NCBI GenBank assembly: GCA_020725525.1
Contig: DYEX01000127.1
Span: 62,001-126,000, forward strand
Direction: 5' to 3'
Length of the DNA stretch: 64,000 bases
DNA from: Desulfovirgula sp.
GTDB taxonomy: Bacteria; Bacillota; Desulfotomaculia; Desulfotomaculales; Desulfovirgulaceae
Part shown: piece after piece, positions 11,143 to 54,818 of the stretch
How the letters are laid out: each line of letters opens with the position of its first letter
How positions within the stretch are numbered: the stretch's first letter is position 1
Notes under the pieces: generated by a model
What the model was told of the DNA's origin: nothing
What the model saw: only the letters and a program-made list of their open reading frames with translations
Database searches by the model: none
Translations under genes and position numbers: made by a program

Positions 11143-13158
11143 ATGAGCAAATGCATGAGCAAAGCAAAACTTGCGACCTTCGCCGCCCTGGGGCTGGCGG
11201 GCATAGCCCTGGTCGCGGCGCTCCCGGTGGGCGTGCTGGTGGCGGCGGCGGCTTTCGGCGCGTCCCGGTACACCCGCCGGGCGGCGGCCGCCCTGTTCCC
11301 CCTGGCCCTGGGGGTGGGGGTGGCGCTGGCGTTCTGGTGCGCGGCCGATTTGATGGGCACTTTAAAGCATTTAGGGGAAGCTAAACCTGCCGTGCCCCTG
11401 GACGTGGCCGGGTGGCTGACGATGGACCGGTTGGACCCGGCCAACCGGGCGGCCAGGGCCGGGCTGGTCCTGGGCGCGCTGGGCGGGGTAGTACTGGCCC
11501 TGGCCCGGGGGCGGGGCGGAGAATTGCACGACGAGCGGCACGTCCACGGCCTGCGGGTGGCCGATAACGCGGCCAAGGGGACCAGGCGGTGGGCGGGTGA
11601 CCGGGACATAGCCCACATCTGCGAGTTTGGCCCGCCCAGGATGGGAGATAAGTTTGGCGGCGGCATAGTCCTGGGCAGGCTGAAGGGCCGGATCGTCCGG
11701 GCGCAGCCCAGCTTGAAGGGGAAACCGCCTTTGCCGGGTCACGCGATGGTGGTAGCCGGGACGGGTGCGGGCAAGACGTACTCATTCGTTATCCCAAACA
11801 CTGTCGCGGCGGCCTGCACGGGGGAAAGTATAGTGGTGACCGACCCCAAGGGGGAGCTGACCTGCCTTTTAGCGCCGTGGCTGAAGAGCTTAAAGTATGA
11901 CGTGTATATCTTCAACCTGTCCCACCCTGAGTACGGCGACCGGTGGAACCCGGTACTGGAGTGCAGGGACAACGAGGAAGTGACGGCCTTCGCCACGGCG
12001 ATAGTCCACAACGCGGCCAAGGACAGCAGCGGGTATTTCGTCATGAAGGAGATTCAGTTACTCAAAGCGCTGGTCTACCTGCTGCGGGCCGACTTCCCGC
12101 CGGAACAGGCGCATTTAAGGAGTGTGCTTTCTCTCCTGGCCTGGCCGGTGGAGGCGCTGGACGAAAGGTTCCAGAACGCATACCGGGTCGGGCGGCTGCC
12201 CAGGGAGGGGTTGGAAGAATGGCGCGGTGCGGTGTCCAGCAACATCGACAACGCCATTTCCGGCCTGACGGCCAAACTGGGCGTGATCCGGGCCGAACCG
12301 GTGGCGAAGCTCCTGACCGGGATGCCGGGGGACATGATTGACCTGTCGGCCCTGGGCCGCAAGAAAGCGGCGCTGTTCTGCGTGTTACCGGTGAACAGCG
12401 GCCACCTGAAGCCGGTGCTGGCGACGTTCTACTATTTCTTCTTCCGGCGCCTGTACGGCCTGGCGGCGGAGAACGGCGGGAGGCTCCCCACCCCGACCCG
12501 CTTCCTGTTGGACGAGTTCGCCAACATCGGTCAGGTGCCGGGGTTTACGGAGACCATCTCCACTGCCAGGAGCCTGGGGATACAGGTACAGTTTATACTC
12601 CAGAGCCTGAAGCAGCTGGCGGACGTGTACGGGGCGAACGAGCTGGAAGTCATCACGGGCAACTGTCCGGTAAGGCTGTTCCTGGGCGGGGACGACCGGG
12701 CGACTACCACGTACTTCTCCCAGCAGCTGGGGGAAGCGGCGGTTTACAGCGTGAACGAATCCAGGGACGTGACCATGCCTTGGGACCGGCTGGACGTTGC
12801 GAAGCGCCGGGAGACAATAACCCGCCGGGCCTTAATGGAGCCTGAAGAGCTGGCAGGGATGGACTCCATGGCGGCGGTGTGTCTGCTGCGCTGGTGCCTG
12901 CCCCTGTACCTGACCAAATTGGGCTGGGAGGAACTGCCGCAGGCGAAGGAGATAAAGGAGCTGGCGGTCCTCACGCTGGCGGACGTGGCCCCGAAAAAAG
13001 ACTTCCGGCTTGAGCTGCCGGAGATGCCGGAAATAACCGAAGAACCGCCCAAGGAAAGGGATAGGAAGCGCGGGAGCGAAAAGAAGCCGAAGAAAAAAGA
13101 TGACGACGGCGAAGGCAGCGGGGACTGGTTAGACGAGTTATTCGGCCCGGCCCAATAA
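11143..13158 (+). CDS. VirD4/TraG-type coupling ATPase (T4CP)
   Basis: Two to three membrane helices occupy residues 1-75 and 100-125. The ATPase domain has Walker A VAGTGAGKTYSFVIPN (about residue 205), the TraG-type VVTDPKGEL and Walker B RFLLDEFANIG (about residue 455). The tail is highly charged and lysine-rich. Coupling proteins bring the relaxase-DNA complex to the secretion channel at the inner membrane. Length (671 aa) is typical. No VirB4 or relaxase is visible in this window, so the rest of the machine must lie elsewhere or be divergent. Confidence 0.9.
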   Translation: MSKCMSKAKLATFAALGLAGIALVAALPVGVLVAAAAFGASRYTRRAAAALFPLALGVGVALAFWCAADLMGTLKHLGEAKPAVPLDVAGWLTMDRLDPANRAARAGLVLGALGGVVLALARGRGGELHDERHVHGLRVADNAAKGTRRWAGDRDIAHICEFGPPRMGDKFGGGIVLGRLKGRIVRAQPSLKGKPPLPGHAMVVAGTGAGKTYSFVIPNTVAAACTGESIVVTDPKGELTCLLAPWLKSLKYDVYIFNLSHPEYGDRWNPVLECRDNEEVTAFATAIVHNAAKDSSGYFVMKEIQLLKALVYLLRADFPPEQAHLRSVLSLLAWPVEALDERFQNAYRVGRLPREGLEEWRGAVSSNIDNAISGLTAKLGVIRAEPVAKLLTGMPGDMIDLSALGRKKAALFCVLPVNSGHLKPVLATFYYFFFRRLYGLAAENGGRLPTPTRFLLDEFANIGQVPGFTETISTARSLGIQVQFILQSLKQLADVYGANELEVITGNCPVRLFLGGDDRATTTYFSQQLGEAAVYSVNESRDVTMPWDRLDVAKRRETITRRALMEPEELAGMDSMAAVCLLRWCLPLYLTKLGWEELPQAKEIKELAVLTLADVAPKKDFRLELPEMPEITEEPPKERDRKRGSEKKPKKKDDDGEGSGDWLDELFGPAQ

Positions 13159-30786: not shown

Positions 30787-31635
30787 ATGACGATTACCGA
30801 GAAAGCGCAAGAGGTTTTAAACCGGCTCTTAGAGATGTTTAGGACAGGCAATTTACCCGCCGCCGTGGCCCGGACCGTCATCCGGGCAAAGGCCGGGTAC
30901 GAGAGGCCGTCCGACAGATGGAGCCTGGGCAACCGGCTGCTGATGTACCTGGCCGGGACGGAGGACGCCAGGGGCTACAGGCAGTGGGAAGAAGTAGGGC
31001 GGCACGTCAGGAAGGGCGCAAAGGCGTTCTACATCCTGGCACCCATGACCAGGAAGAAAACGGTCAGGGAGCGGGAAGTGGACCCGGAGACCGGCGAAGA
31101 GCGGGAAGTGGAGCGGGAGCGCACGGTCATTACCGGCTTCCGGTGCGTCCCGGTGTTCCGGTACGAGGACACCGAGGGCGAACCCCTGCCGGAAGCGGAC
31201 TATACTCCCCCGGAACCGCCGCCGCTGTTCGACGTGGCCCGGAAATTTGTGGGTGACGTGAGATACCGGCCCTTCGTGGGCAGGTACTACGGCTATTTCG
31301 ACCCCGCCAGGGGTGAGATAGTCCTGAGTACCCACGACGCGCATACCTTCTTCCACGAGCTGGCCCACGCCGTCCACCACCAGGTGAAGCCGGGCGGGTT
31401 AAAGCCGGGCCAGCACGCGGACCAGGAAATTGTGGCCGAAGTAGTGGCCGCCGCCCTGTGCGAGATGTACGGCTTTTCCGGCTACATCTGGCACGGGTGG
31501 GAATACATCCGGCACTACGCCGGGCAGGACGACCGGAAGGCCCTGAAGGCCGTGATGGGCGTCCTGGCCGACGTGGAGAAGGTGCTGGACGTTATCCTTG
31601 GCGCGGCGGAAGAAGAGGCGGTGCGGGCGGCATGA
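30787..31635 (+). CDS. ArdC-like antirestriction protein (ssDNA-binding domain plus metallopeptidase)
   Basis: Residues 1-85 match the ArdC N-terminal domain (DRWSLGNRLLMYLAGTEDARGYRQWEEVGRHVRKGAKAF is its core pattern). The C-terminal half is a zincin-type metallopeptidase with FFHELAHAVHH (HExxH) near residue 190 and a second acidic helix EIVAEVVAAALC. ArdC proteins enter or act with incoming single-stranded DNA and protect it from restriction. Its placement in the last leader-controlled slot fits early expression after transfer; that timing is inferred. Confidence 0.85.
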   Translation: MTITEKAQEVLNRLLEMFRTGNLPAAVARTVIRAKAGYERPSDRWSLGNRLLMYLAGTEDARGYRQWEEVGRHVRKGAKAFYILAPMTRKKTVREREVDPETGEEREVERERTVITGFRCVPVFRYEDTEGEPLPEADYTPPEPPPLFDVARKFVGDVRYRPFVGRYYGYFDPARGEIVLSTHDAHTFFHELAHAVHHQVKPGGLKPGQHADQEIVAEVVAAALCEMYGFSGYIWHGWEYIRHYAGQDDRKALKAVMGVLADVEKVLDVILGAAEEEAVRAA

Positions 31636-32045
31636 GAAACGCCTGTAACGCCTGTTATGTAGAAATCCACTGCGACGGTTCCCACATGCCCCGGGACGGT
31701 GCCGCCTATGGGGGCTACGAGGCCAGGGTTGACGGCCAGCTTGCCCGCCGGTGGAAGGGCCGGGTAAAGGCCGCCGATTCCCTGGAAGCGGAGTTTCAGG
31801 CGGTCATAAGGGCCTTGAGGTGGGCAGTCAAGAAGGGGTACCAGCACGTGGTGGTCTTTACCGACTGCATGGCGCTGGTGCGGATGGTCCGTTCCGGGCC
31901 GAGACCGGGCGGGAAATATGCCCGGTTTATCCGGCGGGTGGCGGCGCTGGTGCAATTAATCGGTCGGGTGTGGTTTGAATGGGTGCCGAGAGAAAGAAAC
32001 CGGCAGGCCGATGTGCTCTGCCGGATGGCAAGGAAGTACGCTTGA
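31632..32045 (+). CDS. RNase H-like protein
   Basis: The ATG overlaps the upstream stop. The carboxylates of the RNase H fold are in order: HCDGSH (Asp15), EAEFQAVIRAL (Glu52-54), VFTDCMALV (Asp78) and RERNRQADVLCR (late Asp). The 137-residue length fits a stand-alone RNase HI-type domain. It could remove RNA-DNA hybrids during element replication. The catalytic set appears complete. Confidence 0.75.
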   Translation: MRNACNACYVEIHCDGSHMPRDGAAYGGYEARVDGQLARRWKGRVKAADSLEAEFQAVIRALRWAVKKGYQHVVVFTDCMALVRMVRSGPRPGGKYARFIRRVAALVQLIGRVWFEWVPRERNRQADVLCRMARKYA

Positions 32046-32050
32046 GATTT

Positions 32051-32083
32051 GGGCCGGGAGGACTTGCAGCCCGGCCCTTTCAT
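32051..32083 (+). terminator. Probable intrinsic terminator
   Basis: The stem GGGCCGGG/CCCGGCCC is followed by a short T-run (TTTCATT) after the RNase H-like gene. Confidence 0.6.
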
Positions 32084-32091
32084 TAATTATG

Positions 32092-32129
32092 GCTATTGTA
32101 TTGACAATAGCAATATGCGGACTTAAAAT
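32092..32129 (+). promoter_or_regulatory. Promoter and operator of the brnT/brnA pair
   Basis: TTGACA, exactly 17 bp and TAAAAT give a strong promoter. The inverted repeat GCTATTG-N6-CAATAGC overlaps the -35 box and is a natural operator for the BrnA-type antitoxin. The predicted start of transcription is close to the toxin start codon, so the mRNA leader is very short. Confidence 0.75.
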
Positions 32130-32146
32130 GGAAGTGGGTGTTGTCG

Positions 32147-32419
32147 GTGAAAATAAGCCGGTTTGAGTGGGATGCCCGGAACATCGGGCATATAGCCAGG
32201 CACGGAGTTAAACCTGACGAAGCAGAAGGTGCGTTCCAAAACGAACCGGTTTTTCGTAAGGGACGCAGCGGGTTTCATATCGTGTACGGCCGCACCGAGG
32301 AAGGGCGTTATCTGTTCGTGGTGTATGTGCGGAAGGCCGGTGGCACAGTCCGAATTATCACGGCCCGGGATATGACCCCAAGCGAAAGACGATACTACCG
32401 CCGACAAAGGGGTGAGTGA
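32147..32419 (+). CDS. brnT: BrnT-family toxin
   Basis: FEWDARNIGHIARHGVKPDEAEGAF at the N-terminus and the RIITARDMTPSERRYYRR end match BrnT (DUF497), a RelE-fold ribonuclease toxin. GTG 32147 gives the family's usual N-terminus. The antitoxin gene follows at once. Expression is probably held down by the BrnT-BrnA complex at the upstream inverted repeat. Confidence 0.85.
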   Translation: MKISRFEWDARNIGHIARHGVKPDEAEGAFQNEPVFRKGRSGFHIVYGRTEEGRYLFVVYVRKAGGTVRIITARDMTPSERRYYRRQRGE

Positions 32420-32423
32420 GTCA

Positions 32424-32747
32424 ATGCCTAAGAAGCTACCTGAATTCAAGGGTGACGAGATACCTGAGTTTGCTACTGAGGAAGAGGCCGCTGAATTCTT
32501 TGCCAGCTACAGTTTCGCGGAAGCTATGGAGAAAGGGTTATTTGAACCTGAAGAGGTTGAATTAGACCCCGAACTGGCCGCAAAAATCCGCGAGCGGGCA
32601 CGGACCAAACAGGTGACCCTGCGCCTGCGGGTGTCCCAAATAGAGGCGGTAAAAGAGATAGCCAGGAGGAAGGACATCCCCTACCAGACCCTGATCCGGT
32701 CGTGGATCGCGGAAGCCATACGCCGGGAGCAGGGCAGCGGGGCATAA
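32424..32747 (+). CDS. brnA: BrnA-type (CopG/RHH) antitoxin
   Basis: The ATG at 32424 lies behind AAGGGGTGAGTGAG. MPKKLPEFKGDEIPEFATEEEAAEFFASYS and the C-terminal ribbon-helix-helix QVTLRLRVSQIEAVKEIARRKDIPYQTLIRSWI fit antitoxins paired with BrnT. It should neutralise the toxin and repress the operon. Confidence 0.8.
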   Translation: MPKKLPEFKGDEIPEFATEEEAAEFFASYSFAEAMEKGLFEPEEVELDPELAAKIRERARTKQVTLRLRVSQIEAVKEIARRKDIPYQTLIRSWIAEAIRREQGSGA

Positions 32748-32798
32748 CATAAATCAAAAACCAGAGGGAGACCACTGGCCGGGTATATTAACCCCCTT

Positions 32799-32853
32799 AT
32801 CTCTCTGCGAAGAGATGCCGGGAGTTTACGAAAACCCCGGCCTTTCTTTTTTT
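32799..32853 (+). terminator. Hairpin pair with terminator
   Basis: An ATCTCT/AGAGAT hairpin is followed by GCCGGG/CCCGGC and CTTTCTTTTTTT, directly before a small gene. Confidence 0.75.
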
Positions 32854-32857
32854 GAAG

Positions 32858-33049
32858 ATGACGTGGTGGATGGGGAGAGACCTGGAAGAGATTGTCGCTG
32901 AACTCATGTCCCGCCTGCCCCACTACCGGGACGACCCGTACTGCCGTGGGGTGTGGGACGGGGCCATGATGGTGATCGCTCACTGCGCCCCGGAGCTGTT
33001 TTACAGGTTACTCCGGGAGCGGGCGAAAGCTGAAACAAAGGAGAGTTAG
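32858..33049 (+). CDS. Small hypothetical protein, 63-65 aa
   Basis: The start is ATG 32858 or TTG 32852; the T-run of a terminator lies directly upstream and no clear ribosome site is seen. The product (MTWWMGRDLEEIVAELMSRL...) is helical. Codon use fits the neighbourhood. Confidence 0.5.
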   Translation: MTWWMGRDLEEIVAELMSRLPHYRDDPYCRGVWDGAMMVIAHCAPELFYRLLRERAKAETKES

Positions 33050-33102
33050 GCCGGTAGGAAAACTTCCGGCCTGTAAAATTAAAATCCAGGGAGGAATGAA
33101 GA

Positions 33103-33516
33103 ATGCAGGTAAATGAGTTTTTAGCTGGCGAGATGTCCAGGGGGATGTCTGAACGGAACAAGGGCGTTGTTGCCGTCGCCCATCTTGCGTGCCAGTTTGC
33201 GGACACCAGGAAAGTTGCGTCCACGGAAGAAGGTGTTATCCACAACCTGATTCCCATGATAGTAGAGGAAAACCTTTCCGGCAAACAGGTAGCAAGGCTG
33301 CTGGTGATGGGGCTGATGGAACTCGGCCAGAAGGCCCTGGACAGGGACGACATGGGCGAATTCCTGCTGGTCCTGTCGGATATTATCGCTGTGGCTACCT
33401 ACCTTAGAGTTACGGGACGCGCCGACGCGGATTTCCTGGACGAGCTGGACAACAAGATAGCAAACATGGTTATGCTGCTGGCCGCGCACACTCAGCCAGA
33501 CAGTTTCGTTAACTAG
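33103..33516 (+). CDS. Hypothetical helical protein, 137 aa
   Basis: The ATG follows CAGGGAGG. The protein is nearly all helical with no recognised motif. It lies between two hairpin/terminator modules and just before the topoisomerase-like gene. Confidence 0.55.
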   Translation: MQVNEFLAGEMSRGMSERNKGVVAVAHLACQFADTRKVASTEEGVIHNLIPMIVEENLSGKQVARLLVMGLMELGQKALDRDDMGEFLLVLSDIIAVATYLRVTGRADADFLDELDNKIANMVMLLAAHTQPDSFVN

Positions 33517-33529
33517 AAAAGGAGAGCTG

Positions 33530-33566
33530 GGCCGGAAGAAAAAAACTTCCGGCCTTTTTAATTTTT
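33530..33566 (+). terminator. Intrinsic terminator
   Basis: GGCCGGAAG pairs with CTTCCGGCC and is followed by TTTTTAATTTTT, directly before the ribosome site of the next gene. Confidence 0.85.
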
Positions 33567-33583
33567 CAGGGAGGGATGCTCGA

Positions 33584-34960
33584 ATGACCGGCTACGAAAA
33601 AATTAAAGCCCTGGCCAGGAAAAGGAACTGCCCGGTAAGGGACCTGCTGGCCCTGGCGCCTAAGAACGACCCTTACTACGCGGGAAGCGAGGGGAGCAGG
33701 CAGAAAGCGGAGTGGTTCGCCAGCCTGTGGCGCAGTTTCGGTTACGAAGGCAAGACCGGCATTCACCTGCGCCGGGTGCACTACCAGCTTGTGAGCCAGC
33801 CGGACCCTTTAAGGTGGGACGGCAGGCCCTACGAGAACACCGAAAACAACTGGAAAGACTTATGCGAGGCGGGCAAACAGGCCCGCTACCTGGGCCTGGT
33901 GGACCCGGAAGCCTTCGTGGACAGAAGGAACCCGGAGCCGCACATCTTCCGACCTGCCGATTACCCTGAGCGCCCCGGCTGGCGCTCTACCGGATGCTGG
34001 TGGTTCATGCCCGAGATCCGGGCCGACCTTTCCGGGGACCTGGACTGGTCGCTGCCCTGGTTTGAAATTACCGGGCTTGACTACACTGAAGCCATGCAGC
34101 CGTACCATTTGGAAATCTGGGTAGAGAAGTCAACGATGGACGACGTGCTTATTCCCCTTTGCCGGGGTTACGGCGTCAACCTGGTGACTGGCCTGGGCTT
34201 CATGAGCATTACCAGCGTCATCGCCCTGATCCGGCGGGTTGCCGGGTCGAGGAAGCCGACCAGGATTTTCTACGTGTCCGACTTCGACCCGGCGGGGGAC
34301 GGGATGCCGGTGGCCGTGGCCAGGCAGATCGAATACTGGCTGAACCAGTACGCGCCGGGCCTGGACGTGAAGCTCAACCCCATCGTCCTGACCAGGGAGC
34401 AGGTGGAAAAGTACCGCCTGCCCCGGATCCCGGTCAAGGACTCCGACCGGCGGAAAGCGCACTTCGAGGAACGCTACGGTGAAGGCGCTGTGGAGCTGGA
34501 CGCGCTGGAGGCCCTTTACCCCGGTGAACTGGCGCGGATAGTGGCTGAGAACATCAGGCGGTTCAGAGACGAAAAACTGGCCCGGAAAGTCCAGGAGGCG
34601 AAGAGAGAGTTTGAGCGGCGTTTGGAAGAGGCATGGAAGAAAAACGTCTTGCCGTACCGGGGCAAACTGGACGAGTTGAGGGAAAAAGTAGAAATTGTGG
34701 CAAGGTACTACCAGGACAAACTTTACGACCTGAAGTGCCGGATGGAAGATGATTTATACGAGTATTCCCTGGAGCTGGAAGAGTTACGGCAAGCCGTAGA
34801 GAAGGCGGTGAACGAAATCAGCGTGGAGGCCCCGGAGCTTCCCGAAGCGGAGACGCCGCCGGAGCCGGAAGATTGGCTTTTTGACAGCTCAAGGAGCTAC
34901 GAAGAGCAGCTTGCGGCGTACCGGGAGCGGAAAAATGGGAACGCTGAAGAAGAGGATTGA
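33584..34960 (+). CDS. Topoisomerase VI-A/Spo11-like (Mini-A-like) protein
   Basis: Residues 55-75 (TGIHLRRVHYQLVSQ) fit the winged-helix part of TopoVI-A/Spo11 with its catalytic tyrosine, here Tyr67. A Toprim domain follows: WVEKSTMDDVLI supplies Glu181, GVNLVTGLGFMSIT is the next strand, and FYVSDFDPAGDG supplies Asp233, Asp235 and Asp239. A long coiled-coil tail (about residues 310-425) ends in an acidic stretch. No B subunit (GHKL ATPase) is encoded nearby. Solo A-type proteins on mobile elements have been called Mini-A. It may nick or break DNA in replication or transfer. Confidence 0.65.
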   Translation: MTGYEKIKALARKRNCPVRDLLALAPKNDPYYAGSEGSRQKAEWFASLWRSFGYEGKTGIHLRRVHYQLVSQPDPLRWDGRPYENTENNWKDLCEAGKQARYLGLVDPEAFVDRRNPEPHIFRPADYPERPGWRSTGCWWFMPEIRADLSGDLDWSLPWFEITGLDYTEAMQPYHLEIWVEKSTMDDVLIPLCRGYGVNLVTGLGFMSITSVIALIRRVAGSRKPTRIFYVSDFDPAGDGMPVAVARQIEYWLNQYAPGLDVKLNPIVLTREQVEKYRLPRIPVKDSDRRKAHFEERYGEGAVELDALEALYPGELARIVAENIRRFRDEKLARKVQEAKREFERRLEEAWKKNVLPYRGKLDELREKVEIVARYYQDKLYDLKCRMEDDLYEYSLELEELRQAVEKAVNEISVEAPELPEAETPPEPEDWLFDSSRSYEEQLAAYRERKNGNAEEED

Positions 34961-35001: not shown

Positions 35002-35045
35002 GCCCGGTCAGGGGATAAAGCCCTGACCGGGCGTCTTTGCTTTTT
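35002..35045 (+). terminator. Intrinsic terminator
   Basis: GCCCGGTCAGGG pairs with CCCTGACCGGGC and is followed by GTCTTTGCTTTTT. Confidence 0.85.
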
Positions 35046-35081
35046 AAGGACCGGTTTCGGCGGGAAAGGAGGTGGCGTGCA

Positions 35082-35280: not shown

Positions 35281-35381
35281 TTAGACGAAAAAGACCGGAA
35301 GTCGGCTTCTGGAATTCTTGATTTTCAAGGCTTCAGGCCATGTACATTTCAAATTGTGAACCGAGCCTATATAAGAATACC
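35281..35381 (+). repeat. 101-bp direct repeat, copy 1 (promoter-like)
   Basis: This region and 35788-35888 share about 80% of positions. The last 45 bases are almost identical, and both carry a CTTGA-N3-TCAAG hairpin with different loops. The conserved end (CATTTCAAATTGTGAACC then TATAAGAAT) looks like a promoter or operator for the next gene. Confidence 0.65.
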
Positions 35382-35444
35382 TATCATCAAAAACCCCCTC
35401 TTAAAAACCCTTACAGAAAGAGGGCAGGAAAGGGTGAATGCCGG

Positions 35445-35783
35445 GTGAAGCTGGTTACCTGCCGCTGGTGCGGGAAAGAATTTAAGCCGCGCAAGAACAG
35501 CCAGAAGTATTGCGACGAGTGCCGTTCCGACCCGGAAGTGGAGAGGGCGAGGGCGCGGGAGCGGAAGCGGAAGCAGCTGGAGCGAAAAAAGAAAGCCGGT
35601 AAAAGAAACGACCGGCAGAAGAAAGAAAAGCGGTGCCTGTACTGCGGCAGGAAGCTCGACCCGTCGAGCAACCGCCAGGTCTGGTGCGAGAAATGCCGGA
35701 AAAACGGCTACCGCGACACCCGCGCCCTGTACATGAAAAAGTGGCGGGCAAAGAGCCGGGCAACAGGGTACCCCATCGCGTGA
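35445..35783 (+). CDS. Zinc-ribbon protein, basic, 112 aa
   Basis: The GTG at 35445 follows AAAGGGTGA. Two ribbons (CRWCGKEF...YCDEC and CLYCGRKL...WCEKC) are separated by a very basic helix (ERARARERKRKQLERKKK). A nucleic-acid-binding role is likely. Its second ribbon resembles that of the gene at 36042 (SNRQ-W/Y-C-x-x-C). The gene is bracketed by the 101-bp direct repeats. Confidence 0.65.
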   Translation: MKLVTCRWCGKEFKPRKNSQKYCDECRSDPEVERARARERKRKQLERKKKAGKRNDRQKKEKRCLYCGRKLDPSSNRQVWCEKCRKNGYRDTRALYMKKWRAKSRATGYPIA

Positions 35784-36041: not shown

Positions 36042-36482
36042 GTGAAAACGCCGGTAATTAGACCGCCTGAAGGTTTTTCCCCGGCTTTACAAAAGGCCCT
36101 GGCCTGGTGCCCCTACTGCGGGGAGGAAAAACCTTTCGGCCTGGACAGCCGTTTGGGGTACGCCCGGTGCGTGGGGTGCGGCATTTCCGAGCGGGATTTC
36201 TACGTGCGGCAGTTCAACGGCCTGTGGTCTGACGACGCGCTGGACAAATTTGTCCGCGCCGTGGAAAAAAGCCGCCGGAAATACGACAGGCCGTTCCCGT
36301 GGGAGACCGGCGTTATTGTAGGGGACCCCAACAAGTCCCAGGTCCCGTTTGACCCGGTGGGACGCGCGGGGAGTAAGTGCGAACGCTGCGGTAACTCTAT
36401 CGAAGCCGTCAGCAACCGGCAGAGATATTGTCCCGAATGCGCAAAAATCGTCCGGCGGGAGAAAAGGCGCAAAGAGAGGTAA
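36042..36482 (+). CDS. Zinc-ribbon protein, 146 aa
   Basis: The GTG follows AAGGGGGTGG. Cys motifs CPYCG...CVGCG (about residues 23-47) and CERCGN...YCPEC (about 112-135) form two ribbons. The tail is very basic (VRREKRRKER). It resembles the protein at 35445 in its second ribbon. A DNA-binding or replication role is plausible. Confidence 0.65.
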   Translation: MKTPVIRPPEGFSPALQKALAWCPYCGEEKPFGLDSRLGYARCVGCGISERDFYVRQFNGLWSDDALDKFVRAVEKSRRKYDRPFPWETGVIVGDPNKSQVPFDPVGRAGSKCERCGNSIEAVSNRQRYCPECAKIVRREKRRKER

Positions 36483-38953: not shown

Positions 38954-39847
38954 ATGGAAATGACACGCAAAGAAAGAATCGGTCTTTTAATGAAAACAGC
39001 TCTTCAGGGGATTAAAGAAAACGGCGGGCAGCTTCCTGTTCGGGATGTTTTGCGCTACGTGGAAGAGCATGTCCAACTTACCGAACATGAAAGACAAAGG
39101 TACGAGAAATCAGGGTATGTAAGATGGGAAGCACTTATCCATTTTTATTCCATTGATTGTCTGAAGGCTGGCTGGCTAAGGAAAAATAAGGGGATATGGT
39201 ACATTACGGACGATGGGATAGATGCCTTAAGGTTATCTCCAGAAGATTTTATTAGACAGGCCCAGGAAAAATACCGCGAATGGAAAAGCAAACATTCGAT
39301 TAAGGAAGATAAGGAAGAATCAACTGAATTGGAGCAAGAAACCGAAGTTATACGCAGGACAGCTTACGAACAAGCCGTTTCTGTAGCCAGAAAAGAAATA
39401 GAGGAATATATCTCTCAATTGGGAGCTTACGAATTCCAGGATTTAGTTGCTGCTTTACTACGGGGGATGGGTTATTATACTCCCTTTATCTCACCGCAGG
39501 GGAAAGACGGCGGGTTTGATATTCTGGCATACAAAGATCCCTTTGGAAGCACAACTCCCAGGATAAAGGTCCAGGTGAAACACCGGAACCAAAAAGTGAC
39601 CGTTAAAGAAGTAAGAGAGCTTGCCAGTCTCCTTAATAAAGAGGGTGAAATGGGACTGATCGTTTCCTCCGGAGGATTTACTGCGGATGCAGAGGTAGAA
39701 ATTCGCAGGTCAGCTCGCCACATTGAGAAAATGGACTTAAATGATTTTATTGGACTCTGGGAGGAATATTACGATAAGATGCGCGAAGAGGATAAGATTT
39801 ACCTGCCATTGCGGCGCGTCTCTTTTTTGGCCCCGCCGAAGGAGTGA
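38954..39847 (+). CDS. Mrr-type restriction endonuclease with N-terminal winged helix
   Basis: Residues 1-85 resemble the Mrr N-terminal winged helix. Residues 135-250 carry the Mrr catalytic fold: YEFQDLVAALLRGMGYYT, then GKDGGFDILAYKDPFG and the PD-(D/E)xK core with IKVQVKHRNQ (Q-x-K). Such enzymes usually cut modified DNA. It starts three bases after the recombinase and precedes the helicase, so it may be the nuclease arm of the defence cluster. Confidence 0.85.
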   Translation: MEMTRKERIGLLMKTALQGIKENGGQLPVRDVLRYVEEHVQLTEHERQRYEKSGYVRWEALIHFYSIDCLKAGWLRKNKGIWYITDDGIDALRLSPEDFIRQAQEKYREWKSKHSIKEDKEESTELEQETEVIRRTAYEQAVSVARKEIEEYISQLGAYEFQDLVAALLRGMGYYTPFISPQGKDGGFDILAYKDPFGSTTPRIKVQVKHRNQKVTVKEVRELASLLNKEGEMGLIVSSGGFTADAEVEIRRSARHIEKMDLNDFIGLWEEYYDKMREEDKIYLPLRRVSFLAPPKE

Positions 39848-39942
39848 TTAAATCATGGTTACTCGGCTTTTATTTTTATGAAACTGCCCTATCTAGTTGA
39901 ACCCATGTTTAAAAATCACGTGAATATCAGGGGGCAAAAAAA

Positions 39943-42900
39943 GTGAGTTTACAACCAGGAGATATAATAACTGGTTCTATTTTCTCTGAGCCTGTGAAGG
40001 TGCTGGCGTACAGAACCATCAGCCCGTCGCTGACCAAGATCGAGGCTGTCGGCCTTCACTCAAAGAGGTACTACGATCCCATCCTTAATCCCGCCGAACT
40101 GGCCGCGCTTACCAAATCTTCGGAGCAACACCTTGAGTTTACAGGCGAAGCCGAAAACGTCTTTCTATTTCTTGAGGGCATGCGCGTCCGCAACGCCTTC
40201 CAGTTTGACCCCTTATACGGGGTAAGCATTTCCCAAATTCACCCGCTACCTCACCAAATTGAAGCAGTGTACCACCACATCCTGAAAAACCCGAACATTC
40301 GCTTTCTTTTGGCTGACGACCCTGGCGCGGGCAAAACCATTATGGCCGGGCTTCTCTTTAAAGAGTTAAAATACCGGGGCTTGGTCAACCGCGTTCTGAT
40401 CGTCGTTCCCGGCCACTTAAAAGACCAGTGGCTCAGGGAAATGAAAGAGCGCTTTGGTGAAAAATTCCTGGTCGTCGACCGCGGCGTGATGAACGCCAGC
40501 TGGGGGCAAAACATCTGGACCGAAAATAACCAGATCATTACCTCCCTGGATTTTGCCAAACAGGAAGACGTTATGTTTGCTTTAAAGGACTCCTCCTGGG
40601 ACCTGGTAATCGTGGACGAAGCCCACAAGATGTCCGCCTACCGGTACGGCGACAAGATAAGCAAGACGGCCCGTTACCAGTTTGGCGAACTGATTTCCCA
40701 GATAACTAAATACCTTCTTTTCCTTACGGCCACGCCCCACCGCGGAGACCCGGAGAATTTCCGTTTGTTCCTGGACCTCCTGCAGCCCGGCTTTTTTGCC
40801 AGTTCGGAAATGCTGGCCGCTTCCATTCAAAACAAAGATAACCCCCTTTTCTTAAGGCGGCTCAAGGAGGATTTAAGGAATTTCGATAACGCCCCTCTCT
40901 TTCCACCCCGGCAGGTGGAGACCGTCAAATACAAGCTGAGCGAAGCCGAAATGGAACTTTACAATGCCGTAACCACCTATGTTGAGCAGAACTTCAATAA
41001 AGCCCTCCAGAAAGAAAAGCGCAACGTCACCTTTGCCCTGACCATCCTCCAGAGGAGGCTGGCCTCCAGCGTCAGGGCCGCCCGCAAGTCGCTGGAGCGT
41101 CGCCGGGACCGGCTGCAGGAACTATATAAAAAGGGGCAATTGCTCCAGGACCTGGGCTACACCGAAGATTACGTGGAAGACCTGGAAGAGAACATCCGCT
41201 GGCAGAAAGAAGAAGAACTTTTAGAAAAACTTACCTCCGCAGAAACTTTAGAGGAACTGAAAGAAGAGATTGAAAAGCTAGATGAGCTCGTGCTCCTGGC
41301 CAAAGAAGTGGAAAAGCAAGAAATCGAAACCAAACTGAAACGCCTAAAAGAAGTTGTTGAAGAGGAAAGGCTCCGGGAGACCGGCACCAAGCTCCTCATT
41401 TTCACCGAATCGAGGGACACGCTGGAGTACCTGGCCGAAAAAATCGGCAAGAAGTGGGGATACTCCGTTGCTACCATTCACGGCGGCATGGGTATGGACG
41501 CCCGCATCCGGGCGGAGCACGAATTTAAAAACCGCGCCCAGGTGATGGTGGCCACCGAGGCGGCAGGAGAAGGGATCAACCTGCAATTCTGCTGGTTGAT
41601 GGTGAATTACGATATTCCCTGGAACCCGAACCGCTTGGAGCAGAGGATGGGGCGCATTCACCGCTATGGGCAGCGCAATGAGGTGCACATTTACAATTTG
41701 GTGGCCGCAGATACCCGGGAAGGAAGAATTCTAGAAAAACTTTTTGAGAAACTGAACCGCATGAGAGAGCACCTGGGTTCCGACCGGGTTTTTGATGTCA
41801 TTGGCGACATCCTGCCGGGGGTCAGCTTAAAAGACCTTATCCTGGAAGCAATTGCAGGTAGGCGAACGATGGAAGAAATCCTGGCCGAGATAGAGCGGGT
41901 GCCGGACGAAGAGGCCATCCTCCGGGTAAAAGAAGCGACAATGGAGGCCCTGGCCACCCGCCACCTCGACCTTTCCCGGATCATTGGTGACCAAAGGATT
42001 GCCAGGGAAAACCGGCTGGTGCCGGAGTACATCGAAAAGTTTTTCCTGCGGGCGGCCCAGAAGCTCGAAATAAAGTGCGAAAAACGTCAGGACGGTTTCT
42101 GGCGAGTAAGCTCAGTTCCCTTTGAGGTGCGCAACCAGCCGTATGAATTCAAAATTAAATACGGAGAGGTGCATCGAGAATACCTGAAGGTGGCTTTCGA
42201 TAAAGAAGCGGCCTTTAACGCTCAGGCAGAGTTTGTCACGATGGGGCATCCTTTGATGGAAGCCGTACTGGAAACCGTATTTAAAAAATATCAGCAGGAC
42301 GCTGCCCGGGGTGCGGTCTTTATCGACCCCGACGGCAGGAAGAACGGCCTGTTGTGGTTTTTAACCGGCGAGATTAAAGACGGCAGAGGGGAAGTTGCCG
42401 GCCGCCGTTTGCTCTGCATCTATCAGGCAGTTGACGGCAGATTTTCTTCCGTCAACCCTTCGGTGATCTGGGACCTCAAGCCGCGTGATGAAGGTGGGCC
42501 AGTTGAACAGGAAACAGCGGCCTTGTCTACTTCCAAAGAAGACGTGATTGCTTTCGCTTTGAATCACCAGCTGCTTCCGTACCGTGAAGAATTATTGCAG
42601 CAAAGGCAGCGGGACGCCGCCCTTAAGGAAAAATACGGGCTTAGGTCCATCGAATCTATGATTTTAGAGTCCGAAGCCAAACTTGCCGACTACGAAACGA
42701 GGAAGATAAAAGGTGAGAATATTCCGGAAGTAACGATTATCCAGGAGAGCCGCAAAAGGGAGGAGCTGGAGCAGAAAAAAATCCGGCTGCAGGACGAAAT
42801 CCGCGCCCAGACCAGCCTTTACCCTTCCGAACCGGAGGTTCTGGCCGTAATCCGCGTATTGCCGGGAGTGTCCCTGCCGGACGGGATGGCTAGCGACGAA

Positions 42901-43272
42901 TCAATCGAGCAGGTGGGGATGGAGCTGGCCATGAGGTACGAGCGGGAGCAGGGGAGGGAACCCGAGGACGTCTCGGCGCAGGCTTTGGGTTACGACATCC
43001 GCTCGGTTGACGCAGCCGGGAACTGCCGCTACATCGAGGTGAAAGCCCGGGCAAAAAGCGGTGCCATAGCCTTGACGCCGAACGAATGGCTGTTGGCCAA
43101 CCGCTTGGGAGACGAATATTGGCTGTACATTGTGGAGCAGGCTGCTACTGCACCGGTACTATACACACTACAAAACCCGGCAGCACACCTGAAGCCGGAG
43201 GAAGTGGTAGAGATTGTGCGGTATGTGGTAAAGGATTGGCGGAACGTGGCAAGGAGAGCAGAGACAAATTGA
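39943..43272 (+). CDS. SNF2-like helicase with C-terminal DUF3883-like domain
   Basis: Helicase motifs in order: LLADDPGAGKTIMAGLL (Walker A), LVIVDEAHKMSA (DEAH), LFLTATPHRG (motif III) and GINLQFCWLMVNYDIPWNPNRLEQRMGRIHRYGQ (motifs V-VI). Coiled coil fills residues 370-460. The last 130 residues (ALGYDIRSVDAAGNCRYIEVKARAKSG) match the DUF3883-type domain, often linked with restriction. At 1109 aa it resembles the DrmD-like helicases of DISARM-class systems. GTG 39943 follows a GGGGG site. DNA translocation or remodelling on invading DNA is the likely role. Confidence 0.85.
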   Translation: MSLQPGDIITGSIFSEPVKVLAYRTISPSLTKIEAVGLHSKRYYDPILNPAELAALTKSSEQHLEFTGEAENVFLFLEGMRVRNAFQFDPLYGVSISQIHPLPHQIEAVYHHILKNPNIRFLLADDPGAGKTIMAGLLFKELKYRGLVNRVLIVVPGHLKDQWLREMKERFGEKFLVVDRGVMNASWGQNIWTENNQIITSLDFAKQEDVMFALKDSSWDLVIVDEAHKMSAYRYGDKISKTARYQFGELISQITKYLLFLTATPHRGDPENFRLFLDLLQPGFFASSEMLAASIQNKDNPLFLRRLKEDLRNFDNAPLFPPRQVETVKYKLSEAEMELYNAVTTYVEQNFNKALQKEKRNVTFALTILQRRLASSVRAARKSLERRRDRLQELYKKGQLLQDLGYTEDYVEDLEENIRWQKEEELLEKLTSAETLEELKEEIEKLDELVLLAKEVEKQEIETKLKRLKEVVEEERLRETGTKLLIFTESRDTLEYLAEKIGKKWGYSVATIHGGMGMDARIRAEHEFKNRAQVMVATEAAGEGINLQFCWLMVNYDIPWNPNRLEQRMGRIHRYGQRNEVHIYNLVAADTREGRILEKLFEKLNRMREHLGSDRVFDVIGDILPGVSLKDLILEAIAGRRTMEEILAEIERVPDEEAILRVKEATMEALATRHLDLSRIIGDQRIARENRLVPEYIEKFFLRAAQKLEIKCEKRQDGFWRVSSVPFEVRNQPYEFKIKYGEVHREYLKVAFDKEAAFNAQAEFVTMGHPLMEAVLETVFKKYQQDAARGAVFIDPDGRKNGLLWFLTGEIKDGRGEVAGRRLLCIYQAVDGRFSSVNPSVIWDLKPRDEGGPVEQETAALSTSKEDVIAFALNHQLLPYREELLQQRQRDAALKEKYGLRSIESMILESEAKLADYETRKIKGENIPEVTIIQESRKREELEQKKIRLQDEIRAQTSLYPSEPEVLAVIRVLPGVSLPDGMASDESIEQVGMELAMRYEREQGREPEDVSAQALGYDIRSVDAAGNCRYIEVKARAKSGAIALTPNEWLLANRLGDEYWLYIVEQAATAPVLYTLQNPAAHLKPEEVVEIVRYVVKDWRNVARRAETN

Positions 43273-44105
43273 TTGTGTTTTTCATTGTAATGCTCACTTT
43301 CACCCTTGTTTCATTATGTATCTATCGGCCATTCTGGCAACCCTGGTCATCTTTAGCTAGCATCATAATGGCTGGGGTTACTGCAATAATGGCTTTTTAC
43401 ACTAAAAGGATGGCAGATGAAGCAAGGTTGAGTCGCTTGGAAGGCGAAAGATACAAGGAGAAGGCCGCTTTTCAGAGAGTGCTGGCCATTTTAGCTTGGG
43501 ATATTCAACGGCATGACCGGTGGTTTAAACAGGCTACTGCTTCCTCTATAGATCGGTTTTCTGTATTTCTTCCGGACCTGGAGGCAGTTTTCCGTTTAGG
43601 CCAGGTACATCATAGTCTGTTAAGCTTACTTGACGAGGTTGTGTTACCTTCTCCCCTTCTCAGGAGATTCATGGGGTTATTGTTGTATACACAGGAATTA
43701 AACGCGAAGTTGTTAAATGATTTGGCATTGTTAAAGGATGAATTAAGAGAATCTATGAATGTAGAGCTACAGAATAGATTGGAGCGCTCTCTCCATGACT
43801 TCAAAAGGGAATGGTTAGTCCTCCGGTTTTACCAGCGAGAGTTTGCCTGTTACATCGTGGCGGAGACAAAGAGACGAGGTTTCCAAGAAATAGCGGAAGC
43901 GTTTGAAGTAACTTCGGTATTCGAGCCCACTCCAGACATGGCTAAGTTAAATTCATTAGAAAGCCAGTTTTCTTTATTGCCACCGGAACCAAACGAGCCC
44001 GATTACCTAAAATGTAAACGTGAGGAACTTCTCATAAAAGCTAAGCAGAGAGCCGAAGAAGAAGCCAGAACTGTGAAAGAGTTGCTCGATGCGGGGGGTG
44101 TGTGA
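43269..44105 (+). CDS. Membrane protein of the defence cluster, 278 aa
   Basis: The TTG at 43269 follows AAGGAGAGC and overlaps the helicase stop. Two N-terminal membrane helices (residues 1-18 and 27-45) precede a cytoplasmic helical region of about 230 residues. No family is recognised. A membrane protein between helicase and methylase is unusual for this cluster type and could be an abortive-infection effector or anchor; this is inference. Confidence 0.6.
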
Positions 44106-46794
44106 GATTAGAAACAAAGCTTTCATCGAAAGCTCTTTTCCTGTAAAAGAGGTCAGCCGGGAGTCGGCGCGGGAGAAAAACATCCGCCACGGGCACATCT
44201 CCACCCTGCACATCTGGTGGGCGAGGCGGCCACTGGCAGCCTCCCGGGCGACAATTTACTCGGCGCTTGTTCCGGAGCCAAATGACGAACAGGAGCGACT
44301 CACCCGGGCAAGCTTCATCCATGAACTATGTAAGTGGGAAAACTCCCTTAACCCCTATTACATTGAGCGGGCCAAGAGAGATATTATTGCGGCAAATAGC
44401 GGTAAGCTTCCGAGGATTATCGACCCCTTTTCTGGCGGAGGAAATATAGCGTTAGAGGCCCTGCGCCTCGGATGCGAAACCTATGCTTCCGACCTCAACC
44501 CGGTGGCGGTATTGATTGAAAAGGCTACTTTGGAGTTTCCTCAAAAGTACGGCAGGCCGGTCAAGCGTAAAGAAAAGACACCACTGGGTGAAGTGGAGCG
44601 CGAAGTCAACCCCCTTTTAGAAGACGTTAAGCGCTGGGGGGAATGGGTTCTGGAGGAAGCGCGTAAGGAGATGGGGTGTTTCTACCCCTCCGATCCCGAC
44701 GGTAGTATTCCGGTAGGGTACATCTGGGCAAGGACGGTTAAGTGCAATAACCCGGCCTGTGGGGCGGAGATACCTCTCCTGCGCCAGACCTGGCTAGCCA
44801 AAAAAGACAATAAACAGGTGGCCCTTAAAATTATCCCATTGGGGAATAAAATAAGGTTCGAGATTATGGAAGGAGCGGCCATCAACTTCGACCCCGGGGA
44901 AGGGACCGTTGCGCGGGCCAGAGTGATCTGCCCCTGCTGCGGCAGCGGTTTGACCGACAAAGAGGTTCGGAAGCAGTTTCAGAAAGGCCGGGTCGGTCAG
45001 CGGCTGGTGGCGGTAGTCTTGCACCACCCGGACCGGCAGGGGAAGACTTACCGCCTGGCGACGGAAAAGGACATGGAGGTTTTCCGGAAAGCCGAGGAGT
45101 ATCTGGAACAAAAGCGGGAGGAGTTGTGGGGCAAGTGGGGCTTTGACCCGGTACCGGATGAACCTATACCAACTCCTTGTCATGACGTTGATCGCCCACC
45201 AATGTACGGAATGTACACTTGGGGCGACCTCTTCAACCCCCGCCAGAAGCTGGCGCTGATCACTTTTGCAGAGAGGGTGCGGCAGGCACACGAGTTGATG
45301 CTGGCGGAGGGGTATAAGGAGGAGTATGCCAGGGTGATAGTGACATATTTGGCACTGGGGTTGGATAGATTAGCGGATTATAATTCTGGAATCTCAACAT
45401 GGGTCCCTCATGGAGAGTTTGTTGGACATACCTTCACCAGACAAGCTTTACCAATGGTATGGGATTATTTCGAACTAAGTCCCTTCAGCGAAGCTACGGG
45501 TGATTGGAACTCAGGGTTGGATTGGATCTTAAGGGTTGTCGACCATTGCTCCCAAACCAACTCCACCCCCGCCACCGTCACACAGGCCTCCGCCACTGCT
45601 CTGCCCTATCCCGACAACTACTTCGACGCCGTGGTCACTGACCCGCCGTACTACGATAATGTTGGATACGCCAATTTATCGGATTTCTTTTATGTATGGC
45701 TAAAGAGAACCATAGGAGACTTTTATCCTGAGCTTTTTGCCACTCCGCTAACCCCAAAGAGTCAAGAATGTGTCCAAGATCCTTACCGATACGGAAGCAA
45801 GGAGCAGGCCAAAGTCTTTTTTGAAGAATGCATTACTAAAGCCTTTAAAGAAATCCACCGAATTTTAAAACCCGAAGGTACTGCTGTCATTGTCTTTGCA
45901 CACAAGACCACCGCGGCCTGGGAGACCATCATCAATGCACTTTTAAACTCTGGTCTTTACCTTACCGCCTCCTGGCCGTTACACACAGAAATGAAGGCTC
46001 GCTTATTGGCCAAGGAATCGGCGGCCCTTGCCTCCTCCATCTACATGATCTGCCGCAAGCGTACTACCAGGGAAACTGCCTATTATAACGAGATCAAACC
46101 CCTGGTAGAAGAGAGGATCCGGCAAAAGCTGGATCAGTTCTGGAACGAGGGGATCGGTGGCAGCGACTTCTTCATCGCCGCCATCGGCCCGGCTTTAGAG
46201 GTTTTCGGCCGTTACGAGAAGGTGGAGACCTACGCGGGCGAGGAAGTTTCGGCTCAGGACCTGCTGGAATTTGTCCGCAAGACGGTGAGCGAGTACGCCC
46301 TGGCCAGGATTCTTAAAAACGGCAACCTGGGAGGTATTGACGCCACCGCCCGATTCTACCTCCTCTGGCGCTGGACCTACAACGGGGCAAGGGTTCATTT
46401 TGACGAGGCGCGTAAGCTTTCTTCTGCCTGCGGCGTCGAACTGGAGCAGTACTGGAACGGAGGCCTTGTTAAAAAAGACAAAGAGTACATCAGCGTCTTG
46501 GGGCCAAAAGAGAGGGATAGAAAGTTTTTGGAGAAGGAAAAGTTTAACAGTATGGTGGACGTCCTTCACGCCTGCCTGTTGCTGTGGGAGAAGAGCCAGC
46601 GCATGAAAATAACCGAAATCCTGCAATCATCAGGCAACCTCCACAACAACGCCTTCTGGCAACTGGCCCAGGCCGTTTCGGACATTTTGCCGGAGGGAGA
46701 CAAAGAGAAGCAAATGATTCAAGGTTTCCTTTACGGTCGGGATAGCTACCACAAAGCAGCAAACGGCACCGGGCAGCAATCCTTCGGTTTTTAG
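44089..46794 (+). CDS. DUF1156-type adenine-specific DNA methylase
   Basis: The N-terminus [28 protein letters not shown] is the DUF1156 signature. Methylase motifs are [17 protein letters not shown] (SAM-binding) and [13 protein letters not shown] (DPPY catalytic motif). A zinc ribbon (CNNPACG...CPCCGSG) lies between them. At 901 aa it fits the large methylases encoded with DUF499 ATPases. It should methylate adenine to mark self DNA. It overlaps the upstream gene by 17 bases. Confidence 0.9.
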
Positions 46795-46810
46795 AAAGGG
46801 CGATAGTTAA

Positions 46811-46915
46811 ATGATGGTCATTTTTCTCCCGTGGTGCCCATTAAACAAAGAATATGCGAGGAAAGGAATTAAGCCATTACCATATTCTACTGATTTGGAT
46901 GAAGCAAGAGCTTAA
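46811..46915 (+). pseudogene. Short gene remnant, 34 codons
   Basis: The frame MMVIFLPWCPLNKEYARKGI... looks like the start of a larger protein that breaks off. A second 37-codon frame starts on its stop codon (46915). Neither has a good ribosome site. I read the 46,797-47,081 gap as residue of a lost gene between methylase and winged-helix gene. Confidence 0.3.
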
Positions 46916-47081
46916 TGAAGTCTGGGGATTTGTGTTTTTCTGATCTGGCGAAACGCGAGCTTTTTAAGGCTTACGGTTCTTACTGTAACCGTGACAATTC
47001 GACGGAAGTATTTCCAGAAAGTAATTGAGAAAGAAGTGTTAGCGTTTATGGGTAAGTTGTCCCCAGGGGGAGAGGGACAGA

Positions 47082-47678
47082 ATGACTGATCAGAATAATG
47101 AGGTAATAAAATCTTTTGATTCACTTCTTACCAAAATTGATGCTATAGGCGAATGGTTTCGCCAAAGAGGGATAAAGGCGCTCAATACAGGGGACTACGA
47201 GACGGCGGAAAAAATAATTAGCCAGGCCAAGAAGATGGCTACTTTTCGGGAAAGGATTATGGAGCTAAAAGTTGAGTGGCAAAAGAGTTTTTCCCAGGAA
47301 GTCGATGAAACTGCTACAGATAAAAAACTAACAAGTACTTTACCCAAAGGGCCGGAACCGGTTCAAGGATTAAACATACGCACGCAAGAAAAGGAATTTC
47401 GCCGTCCGATTCTGGAAGCGCTAGAAGAACTTGGCGGTGCGGCTCATCCTAATGAAGTTCTAAAGCTCGTTTATGAAAAAATGAAGGAGCGGTTGAGCGA
47501 GTATGACCACCAGTTGCTTCCTGGGGGGAGAGAAGTGCGCTGGCGCAATACGGCTCGATGGTGTCGTAAGCACATGGTAAAAGAAGGGTTATTAGCTTCC
47601 GATTCTCCGCCTGGTATCTGGGAAATCACTCCTGCAGGACGGATAGAGTTGGCACGTCTACGAAAAACTGAAGAGTAA
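47082..47678 (+). CDS. Winged-helix protein (Mrr N-terminal-like), 198 aa
   Basis: The ATG follows GGGGGAGAGG. Residues 1-65 are helical. Residues 105-195 (EFRRPILEALEELGGAAHPNEVLKLVYEKMK...RWRNTARWCRKHMVKEGLLASDSPPGIWEIT) match the winged helix found at the N-terminus of Mrr enzymes, here without a nuclease domain. It may help target the cluster to DNA. Confidence 0.7.
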   Translation: MTDQNNEVIKSFDSLLTKIDAIGEWFRQRGIKALNTGDYETAEKIISQAKKMATFRERIMELKVEWQKSFSQEVDETATDKKLTSTLPKGPEPVQGLNIRTQEKEFRRPILEALEELGGAAHPNEVLKLVYEKMKERLSEYDHQLLPGGREVRWRNTARWCRKHMVKEGLLASDSPPGIWEITPAGRIELARLRKTEE

Positions 47679-47725
47679 TTTTACTGGGTTTCTGAAACAG
47701 TTCTCGATCTAGGGGAGGGAGAAAA

Positions 47726-53448: not shown

Positions 53449-54591
53449 TTGCGGGGACATATTAAAAAACGGTCAAAGGACTCCTGGACTGTGGTCATTG
53501 AACTGGGACGCGACCCAGAGACTAACAAACGGCGGCAGAAGTGGATCACGGTGAGGGGTACCAAGCGCGAAGCGGAGGCGGTTTTAGCTGAAGCCCTGGT
53601 AGCCGCTGCACAAGGAAAATTCGGCTTGGCCCCCAACACCCTGACCGTAGCGGGGCTGTTGTCGGTCTGGCTCGATGCTTCGCGGCGTAAGTGGAAACCG
53701 ACGACAGAAGCATGTATGCGGTCGGGTGTTGACGTATGGGTGGAAGTCCTGGGGACAGTCCCTGTAGCAAAACTGACCGCCGCCGACATAGAGCGGGCGC
53801 TGACCCTGTTTGAGAAGGAGAGAAAATACGCGCCCAAGACCTGCCGTCGGCTGTTCGCGACCCTGCGGTGCGCCATGCACTGGGCGGTTAAGAGAAAACT
53901 TGTGGGGAGCAACCCGGTCGATGATGTGGAACCGCCCGCTATCCCGCGCCGGGAAGTGCGGGTCTGGACAGAAGAGGAAGTGTCGCGTTTCCTGGCGGTG
54001 GCTGTAAGGACGGAAAAAGCCATGCTGTTCCGTATGGCGCTGGCAACGGGAATGCGCCTGGGAGAACTCCTGGCCTTGAGGTGGGAGGACGTGGACTTTA
54101 AGTCAGGTGTGGTCTATGTACGCCGGACACTTGCAGACAAGGCTGCAGTTAAGGGGATAATCTTTCAGGAGCCGAAGTCAGCGGCGTCCATCCGGCGGGT
54201 ACCGCTTGACCCCGGTACAGTGCAGGCACTGAAAGAGCACAGAAAAAAGCAGGCCGCAGTCCGGCTAAAGGCGGGAGAAAAGTGGCAGGACTACAGCCTG
54301 GTTTTTTGTACAAAAAACGGTACGCCTTATGCTCACAGTGACGTGCGGCAGGCCATGCGAAGGCTCGTCAGAGAGGCAGGTGTACCGCGTATCCGTTTCC
54401 ATGATATTCGACACACACATGCCTCACTCCTGCTACGGCACGGCGTACACCCGAAAGTAGTGGCTGAACGGCTGGGACATGCCAGTGTAAAGACCACACT
54501 GGATATATACTCCCACCTGCTGCCGGACACCCAGGCAGCGGCTGCCGCAGCTATCGGGGAGGTATTGGGCGACGGCGTTAGCAAGCGTTAG
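53449..54591 (+). CDS. ICE-type tyrosine integrase
   Basis: The TTG follows GGGAGGTGTAAATAAG. The AP2-like arm-binding domain (residues 1-55), SAM-like core-binding domain (65-160) and catalytic domain (175-370) are in order. Catalytic residues: Arg in ATGMRLGELLAL, Lys region EPKSAASIRRVPL, HDIRHTHASLLL, GHASVKTTLDIYSHL (His and Tyr). It is complete at 380 aa. Host genes begin directly after, so the right attachment site should lie within 54,592-54,800. Confidence 0.9.
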   Translation: MRGHIKKRSKDSWTVVIELGRDPETNKRRQKWITVRGTKREAEAVLAEALVAAAQGKFGLAPNTLTVAGLLSVWLDASRRKWKPTTEACMRSGVDVWVEVLGTVPVAKLTAADIERALTLFEKERKYAPKTCRRLFATLRCAMHWAVKRKLVGSNPVDDVEPPAIPRREVRVWTEEEVSRFLAVAVRTEKAMLFRMALATGMRLGELLALRWEDVDFKSGVVYVRRTLADKAAVKGIIFQEPKSAASIRRVPLDPGTVQALKEHRKKQAAVRLKAGEKWQDYSLVFCTKNGTPYAHSDVRQAMRRLVREAGVPRIRFHDIRHTHASLLLRHGVHPKVVAERLGHASVKTTLDIYSHLLPDTQAAAAAAIGEVLGDGVSKR

Positions 54592-54818
54592 CAAACCGCC
54601 AGGAGCGGGCCTGGAACCCTTGCGGCGCAAGGGATTCCGGCCCTACCCTTGATGCGTATTATTTGAAGTGTTTTGTGCTTCAGGTATGGTGATAAAATTC
54701 TCAAGCGCCTGTTGAAATAAGCAGCAATGGAAAAAAGTTGGCCCTTCACCCCTTAAAACTGACTGGCCAATCGTATAAAATGTACGAAGCAATAAACAAA
54801 AGAATGGAGGGTGGTTTT
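54592..54818. other. Probable right end of the mobile element
   Basis: The stretch holds a CCCTTGCGGCGCAAGGG hairpin (54617) and then AT-rich DNA with a TATAAA-type -10 near 54775 for the next gene. No tRNA gene is visible, so the target may be intergenic. The attachment core cannot be defined without the left end. Confidence 0.4.

Follow-up and report, generated by a model that had tools for sequence, protein, structure and literature searches.

A study by Takahashi et al. in 2020 is said to deal with Mini-A proteins, which are already known from viruses and plasmids but are almost uncharacterized. Their function is unknown according to one review (PMC8084294), and no archaeal representative of either the Mini-A proteins or topoisomerase VIII (Topo VIII) has been characterized according to another (PMC8185306). 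Reviews describe Mini-As as small or truncated, although size is not used there as a strict criterion, and the published example is a protein of Pseudomonas phage NP1 (PMC7614492). The larger systems to which they are related are Topo VI, a holoenzyme whose A subunit cuts DNA and whose B subunit carries a GHKL ATPase, and Topo VIII, a type IIB topoisomerase encoded by plasmids and integrated elements, with its B and A parts usually fused in one polypeptide. Many of the published Topo VIII enzymes appear weak or partly inactive, and that of Ammonifex degensii showed ATP-independent cleavage only (PMC7614492). New here is the finding of a Topo VIII gene in the slot of a Mini-A gene in a collinear sister element, with the same leader and downstream terminators. 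A swap of this precision makes it possible to ask directly whether an A subunit on its own can do the work of a type IIB topoisomerase, a question that touches on the possible origin of Spo11 from Topo VI-A.

The Mini-A gene was found in the window, i.e. the whole stretch of 64,000 nucleotides that was analysed, as an intact ORF with the following parts.

33584..34960, + strand: Mini-A gene, long form, 458 aa, with an ATG start and without an internal stop
33584..33688, + strand: N-terminal extension, residues 1–35, with DLLALAPxNDPFYxG, typical of the long clade (alignments)
33782..33784, + strand: codon for the presumed catalytic Tyr67 (RRVHY)
34124..34126, + strand: codon for the Toprim Glu181 (within WVEKST)
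34280..34288, + strand: codons for the Toprim Asp233-Phe-Asp235 (DxD, within SDFDPAG)
34526..34813, + strand: C-terminal helical arm, approximately residues 315–410 (AF2 secondary structure)
34871..34939, + strand: conserved C-terminal motif LFDSxRxYxxQLxxYK, residues 430–452 (alignment of long members)

A blastp comparison with the NP1 Mini-A (gp49) gave an E value of 2e-15 over residues ~60–349 of the window protein; this core corresponds to the NP1 protein (300 aa) over its whole length, and the Tyr, EK and DxD motifs line up. A tblastn search gave a match at 1e-10 to a record annotated as Topo Mini-A. Because of this homology, with its motifs in register, the window protein is, judged by its sequence, a Mini-A of a longer variety (458 versus 300 aa, with extra N- and C-terminal parts) and is related, as a solo protein, to the A subunit of Topo VI. 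This agrees with the kinship proposed in an earlier note made from the DNA letters, which had also read RRVHYQLV as the Tyr motif and Glu181, Asp233 and Asp235 as a complete Toprim set. The residues had been placed correctly: across 42 aligned homologues Y67, E177, E181, K182, D233 and D235 were invariant and R63 was at least 90 % conserved, and the match of Y67, E181, D233 and D235 to the motifs is therefore more than chance. H66 was invariant together with Y67 in the 21 long-form members. No Pfam or NCBIfam family matched the protein above cut-off; PHROG 6247 (‘DNA topoisomerase’) matched its Toprim half with an E value of 9.5e-30.

Relatives of the window Mini-A were detected by tblastn in 67 phage records, many of which carry the annotation DNA topoisomerase, and in 47 plasmid records. 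Haloarchaeal plasmids gave the best matches (E values down to 9e-36). Scanning viral contigs with the single window protein yielded nothing, but alignment-based scans did find relatives. Mini-As proved to be abundant, with at least 526 short-form relatives in one viral-contig scan, and scans with the long-form alignment recovered 12 bacterial loci, from genomes of Pseudomonadota, Chloroflexota, Planctomycetota and Bacillota, and 10 viral contigs. Long members, the nearest of which were ~47–49 % identical to the window Mini-A, shared the N-terminal extension, an invariant His before the Tyr, the C-terminal helical arm and the LFDSxRxYxxQLxxYK motif; this last was also present in the aligned haloarchaeal and Bradyrhizobium members. 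The phylogenetic tree split long and haloarchaeal members from short members with support of 100/100 and grouped the window protein with five long members (95/98), some of the branches being long. Alignment and tree define what is, at the sequence level, a distinct long Mini-A clade spanning bacteria, haloarchaeal plasmids, phages and integrated elements. The window protein and the NP1-type Mini-A have in common a solo Topo VI-A core, the Tyr and Toprim set, sequence homology and coding by mobile elements (a 60.2-kb integrative element in the window; phages and plasmids for the homologues), but the window protein is longer, with the N-terminal extension, the His before the Tyr, the helical arm and LFDSxRxY, and belongs to a separate clade.

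Broken relics of long Mini-As were found at two loci, L003 (genome G073) and L006 (G085), as an N-terminal fragment (62 % identity) and a C-terminal fragment (37 %). A second match in the window's own genome (L002) was a partial one of 29 residues, probably inside an ABC-transporter gene, and was rejected as a chance match.

The structure of the window Mini-A was predicted with AF2 from the 42-sequence alignment (pLDDT 87.4, pTM 0.82); a model from three sequences was poor (pLDDT 59) and was not used. The model contained a winged-helix Tyr domain joined to a Toprim domain and, when compared with the PDB using Foldseek, had Topo VI A chains as its only matches with a probability of 0.99–1.00 (1d3y, the best, with an E value of 6.6e-6, and 9o0g, 9o8p, 2q2e, 9o7o and 2zbk), aligned over ~320 columns. 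The TM-scores against Topo VI A were modest (0.29–0.36 by query length) and the rmsd large, so that the two domains of the modelled protein are probably arranged differently from those of Topo VI A. A BFVD fold search with the model gave no strong match, and matches to apolipoproteins in a sequence-profile search of the PDB were discarded as uninformative, being caused by the coiled coil. Profile comparison of the Mini-A with the A half of Topo VIII gave a probability of 88–90 %, with Toprim opposite Toprim in both alignments and, in one (hhalign), Tyr67 opposite the Tyr of RQLYY. The earlier note had assigned the protein to the TopoVI-A/Spo11 fold and had proposed structure prediction and the conservation of Tyr67 as checks; both were carried out, and the fold assignment came through them, with Topo VI A chains matched rather than a different fold and with Tyr67 conserved throughout.

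In the model, the window protein resembles the Topo VI A subunit and Spo11 in fold, Tyr and Toprim residues; it differs from the Topo VI A subunit in that the Pfam Topo VI-A models miss it and in that the window genome, which is 99.99 % complete, contains no B subunit (no match to PF09239) and hence no Topo VI holoenzyme. No Topo VIII was found in the whole of this genome either. Topo VIII is encoded by the same kind of element, in the same slot of the sister ICE, and has a related A-half core, but the 458-aa Mini-A carries no GHKL ATPase domain and does not combine B and A parts. It is an A-subunit core alone, without ATPase half or partner, just as the solo protein without a B subunit that had been claimed for this locus. 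The JetD/DUF2399-type Toprim nucleases share a Toprim core with the window protein and gave a weak, sub-threshold Pfam match; kinship with them was rejected, as no match was significant and no Wadjet genes were recognized nearby.

The element that carries the gene is 60.2 kb in size, spans C101:56440 to window position 54654 and is inserted at the 3' end of rlmI.

C101:56402-56439, outside the window: attL, 38-bp imperfect repeat (33/38)
11143..13158, + strand: T4CP (TraG/VirD4-like) of the element (PF02534, E 5.6e-53; 88 % identical in G001)
53449..54591, + strand: tyrosine integrase, located at the element's right end (PF00589 and PF14657)
54655..54692, + strand: attR, which repeats the 3' end of rlmI directly but imperfectly (38 bp, 33/38; site unoccupied in G002)

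In the relative G002 the left and right flanks of the element are joined. The designation of the element as an ICE, which the earlier note had used, rests on the T4CP and the integrase. The att repeats and the empty site were found as well; no VirB4-like conjugation ATPase was recognized among the proteins examined. Other products encoded by the element include a primase-DnaB protein, an actin-like ParM, RadC and an ArdC-like protein, together with a defence cluster (38954-50383) in which PADLOC identified a PDC-S02-like nuclease and an Hma system (HmaA helicase, E 1e-213; HmaB methylase; HmaC ATPase). Beside the cluster lies a SIR2-like gene (50715-51710, − strand; PADLOC). The element, with its T4CP and without a recognized VirB4, also encodes a protein of 889 aa (17228-19897) that has three AAA domains and is IetA-like according to PADLOC, and small adjacent genes at 32138-32747, BrnT/BrnA-like toxin–antitoxin genes by eye, were conserved in sister elements. 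Remnants of ~3 kb in the rlmI–pabC region of G001 and G005 (L154 and L155), with matches to the window at 26.7–26.8 kb and 30.3–30.5 kb, suggest that the rlmI insertion site has been used repeatedly.

The sister element of G001, a member of the same genus, is collinear with the window element, and the comparison of the two delimits the slot.

33519..33583, + strand: slot leader, a terminator-like hairpin (33529-33555) and then AGGGAGGG upstream of the ATG; ~60 bp in common with the leader of the G001 Topo VIII
35002..35068, + strand: downstream end of the slot, with a terminator-like hairpin (35002-35032); 67 bp, 94 % identical downstream of the G001 Topo VIII
G001:C1:1586032-1588473: Topo VIII of the sister element, 813 aa (L177; PF21180, E 5.3e-7; HATPase_c, E 0.0016)

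Window positions 31001-33070, 33519-33578 and 35002-35068 matched G001 in this order with 93, 87 and 94 % identity, respectively (collinear stretch G001:C1:1590589-1585873), and the slot between the last two blocks holds the Mini-A in the window and the Topo VIII in G001. The latter combines a GHKL-like N-terminal half (ELVDNALDEAE, IRDNGPG and PTRGYLGNALKT) with a Topo6A/Spo11 Toprim. At the left junction of the swap are the terminator-like hairpin and a ribosome-binding site running to the ATG, and at the right junction the terminator-like hairpin stands just beyond the stop codon. The gene upstream (33103-33516) likewise differs between the window and G001. The possibility that the Mini-A is a truncated or decayed form of the G001 Topo VIII was rejected, as pairwise alignment of the two gave no meaningful match and other long Mini-As are up to ~49 % identical to the window Mini-A.

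The swap was observed in one pair of elements. The elements of G006 and G015, whose T4CPs are 63–70 % similar, had neither a Mini-A nor a Topo VIII at the slot, which may therefore be a cargo site. In G034 a Topo VIII gene and a homologue of the T4CP are ~3.5 kb apart, and genes or gene fragments related to the Topo VIII of G001 were seen in G034, G066, G076, G090 and G016. Homologues of the T4CP were present in 49 of 100 relatives and matches to the Mini-A in six of 100, the two occurring together in the window's genome only; none of the 48 other T4CP-bearing relatives has a Mini-A. Within this family of elements the Mini-A is an optional gene, since T4CP-bearing relatives and sister elements do without it, and the Topo VIII at the slot of G001 favours an optional role of the topoisomerase type. 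The swap suggests that a solo Mini-A can do a job related to that of Topo VIII. A stronger proposal, that the ATPase-less solo Mini-A is a functional, ATP-independent enzyme of type IIB standing in for a complete Topo VIII, the one gene having been traded for the other within a conserved regulatory slot of this ICE family, is put forward tentatively, as a possibility that falls a little short of probable; if it were true, the Mini-A/Topo VIII pair would be a natural complementation test.

The swap, the invariant active site and the replication and recombination genes near related Mini-As together favour a cleaving and resealing topology enzyme. The neighbours of several other long Mini-As included D5-type primase-helicases (L026 and L034), a Toprim primase (L027), DUF3987 (L040), a replication protein (L041), DNA polymerase III (L038), Erf (L039), ParB-like proteins (L033-L035) and, in haloarchaeal plasmids, MCM; tyrosine integrases alone recurred widely (nine of the 22 loci). 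Short-form Mini-As had diverse neighbours, with no single dominant partner. Most likely the window Mini-A would act as a homodimer that depends on Mg2+: Tyr67 from one protomer and the Toprim acidic triad from the other would form a transient, protein-linked double-strand break, and this break would then be resealed without an ATPase gate. On the element such an enzyme may serve an optional role in topology, relieving supercoils or crossings during replication or maintenance, a role that a full Topo VIII would fill in the sister. We regard this Tyr-dependent, ATP-independent cleaving and resealing homodimer as a moderately probable description of the protein. The Topo VIII of A. degensii provides a precedent for the ATP-independent cleavage; true strand passage is not expected of a Mini-A without an ATPase.

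The main rival, which we consider rather unlikely although still worth weighing, is a break maker like Spo11, leaving lasting double-strand breaks that are protein-linked at their 5' ends, with no resealing duty; such breaks would initiate recombination of the element, or its replication by a recombination-dependent route, or would be aimed at competitor DNA. The protein has the same core as Spo11 and no ATPase, and some phage Mini-As have annealing or exonuclease genes as neighbours: that of NP1 lies beside a Sak4-like protein and a Cas4-domain exonuclease, and an Erf-like protein is encoded next to L039. However, the window Mini-A stands where the sister element has a Topo VIII equipped with an ATPase half, no annealing protein was recognized next to it in the window, and Spo11 requires partner proteins, none of which was identified here. 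Less probable again is a cargo or regulatory protein at a neutral insertion site, which would bind DNA crossings or would have lost its activity. Such a protein would fit the differences among siblings in the genes adjoining the slot and the existence of long Mini-A relics, but all catalytic residues are invariant in the 42 homologues, the ORF is intact, and a conserved leader and terminator bound the exchange of single type IIB genes.

In line with the earlier note, which saw no relaxase, the whole window genome contained no relaxase of the MOB_P (PF03432) or MOB_T (PF02486) type, so that a T4CP family with members in 49 of 100 relatives occurs there apparently without either type. The note's further suggestion, that the Mini-A is a nicking or break-forming enzyme launching the element's transfer instead of a relaxase, could draw on this and on the T4CP of the element, but a dedicated transfer nickase is very improbable, since the linkage to T4CP genes that it proposed to look for among homologues was confined to the window genome, the sister elements of G006 and G015 keep a T4CP without a topoisomerase at the slot, G001 has a Topo VIII there, type IIB enzymes cut both strands, and the other long Mini-As are in phages and in elements without this T4CP, no homologue of it having been found within the loci examined around other Mini-As. 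We favour instead an optional role like that of a type IIB topoisomerase, for which Topo VIII and Mini-A would be interchangeable.

One gene downstream of the slot encodes a possible partner.

35340..35783, + strand: zinc-finger gene, neighbour of the Mini-A gene (comparison by eye; weak, generic motif)

A further separate zinc-finger gene follows at 36042-36482. Zinc-finger repeats were fused to the C terminus of the Mini-A relatives in L020 and L023, of which the one in L020 is without the normal N-terminal half.
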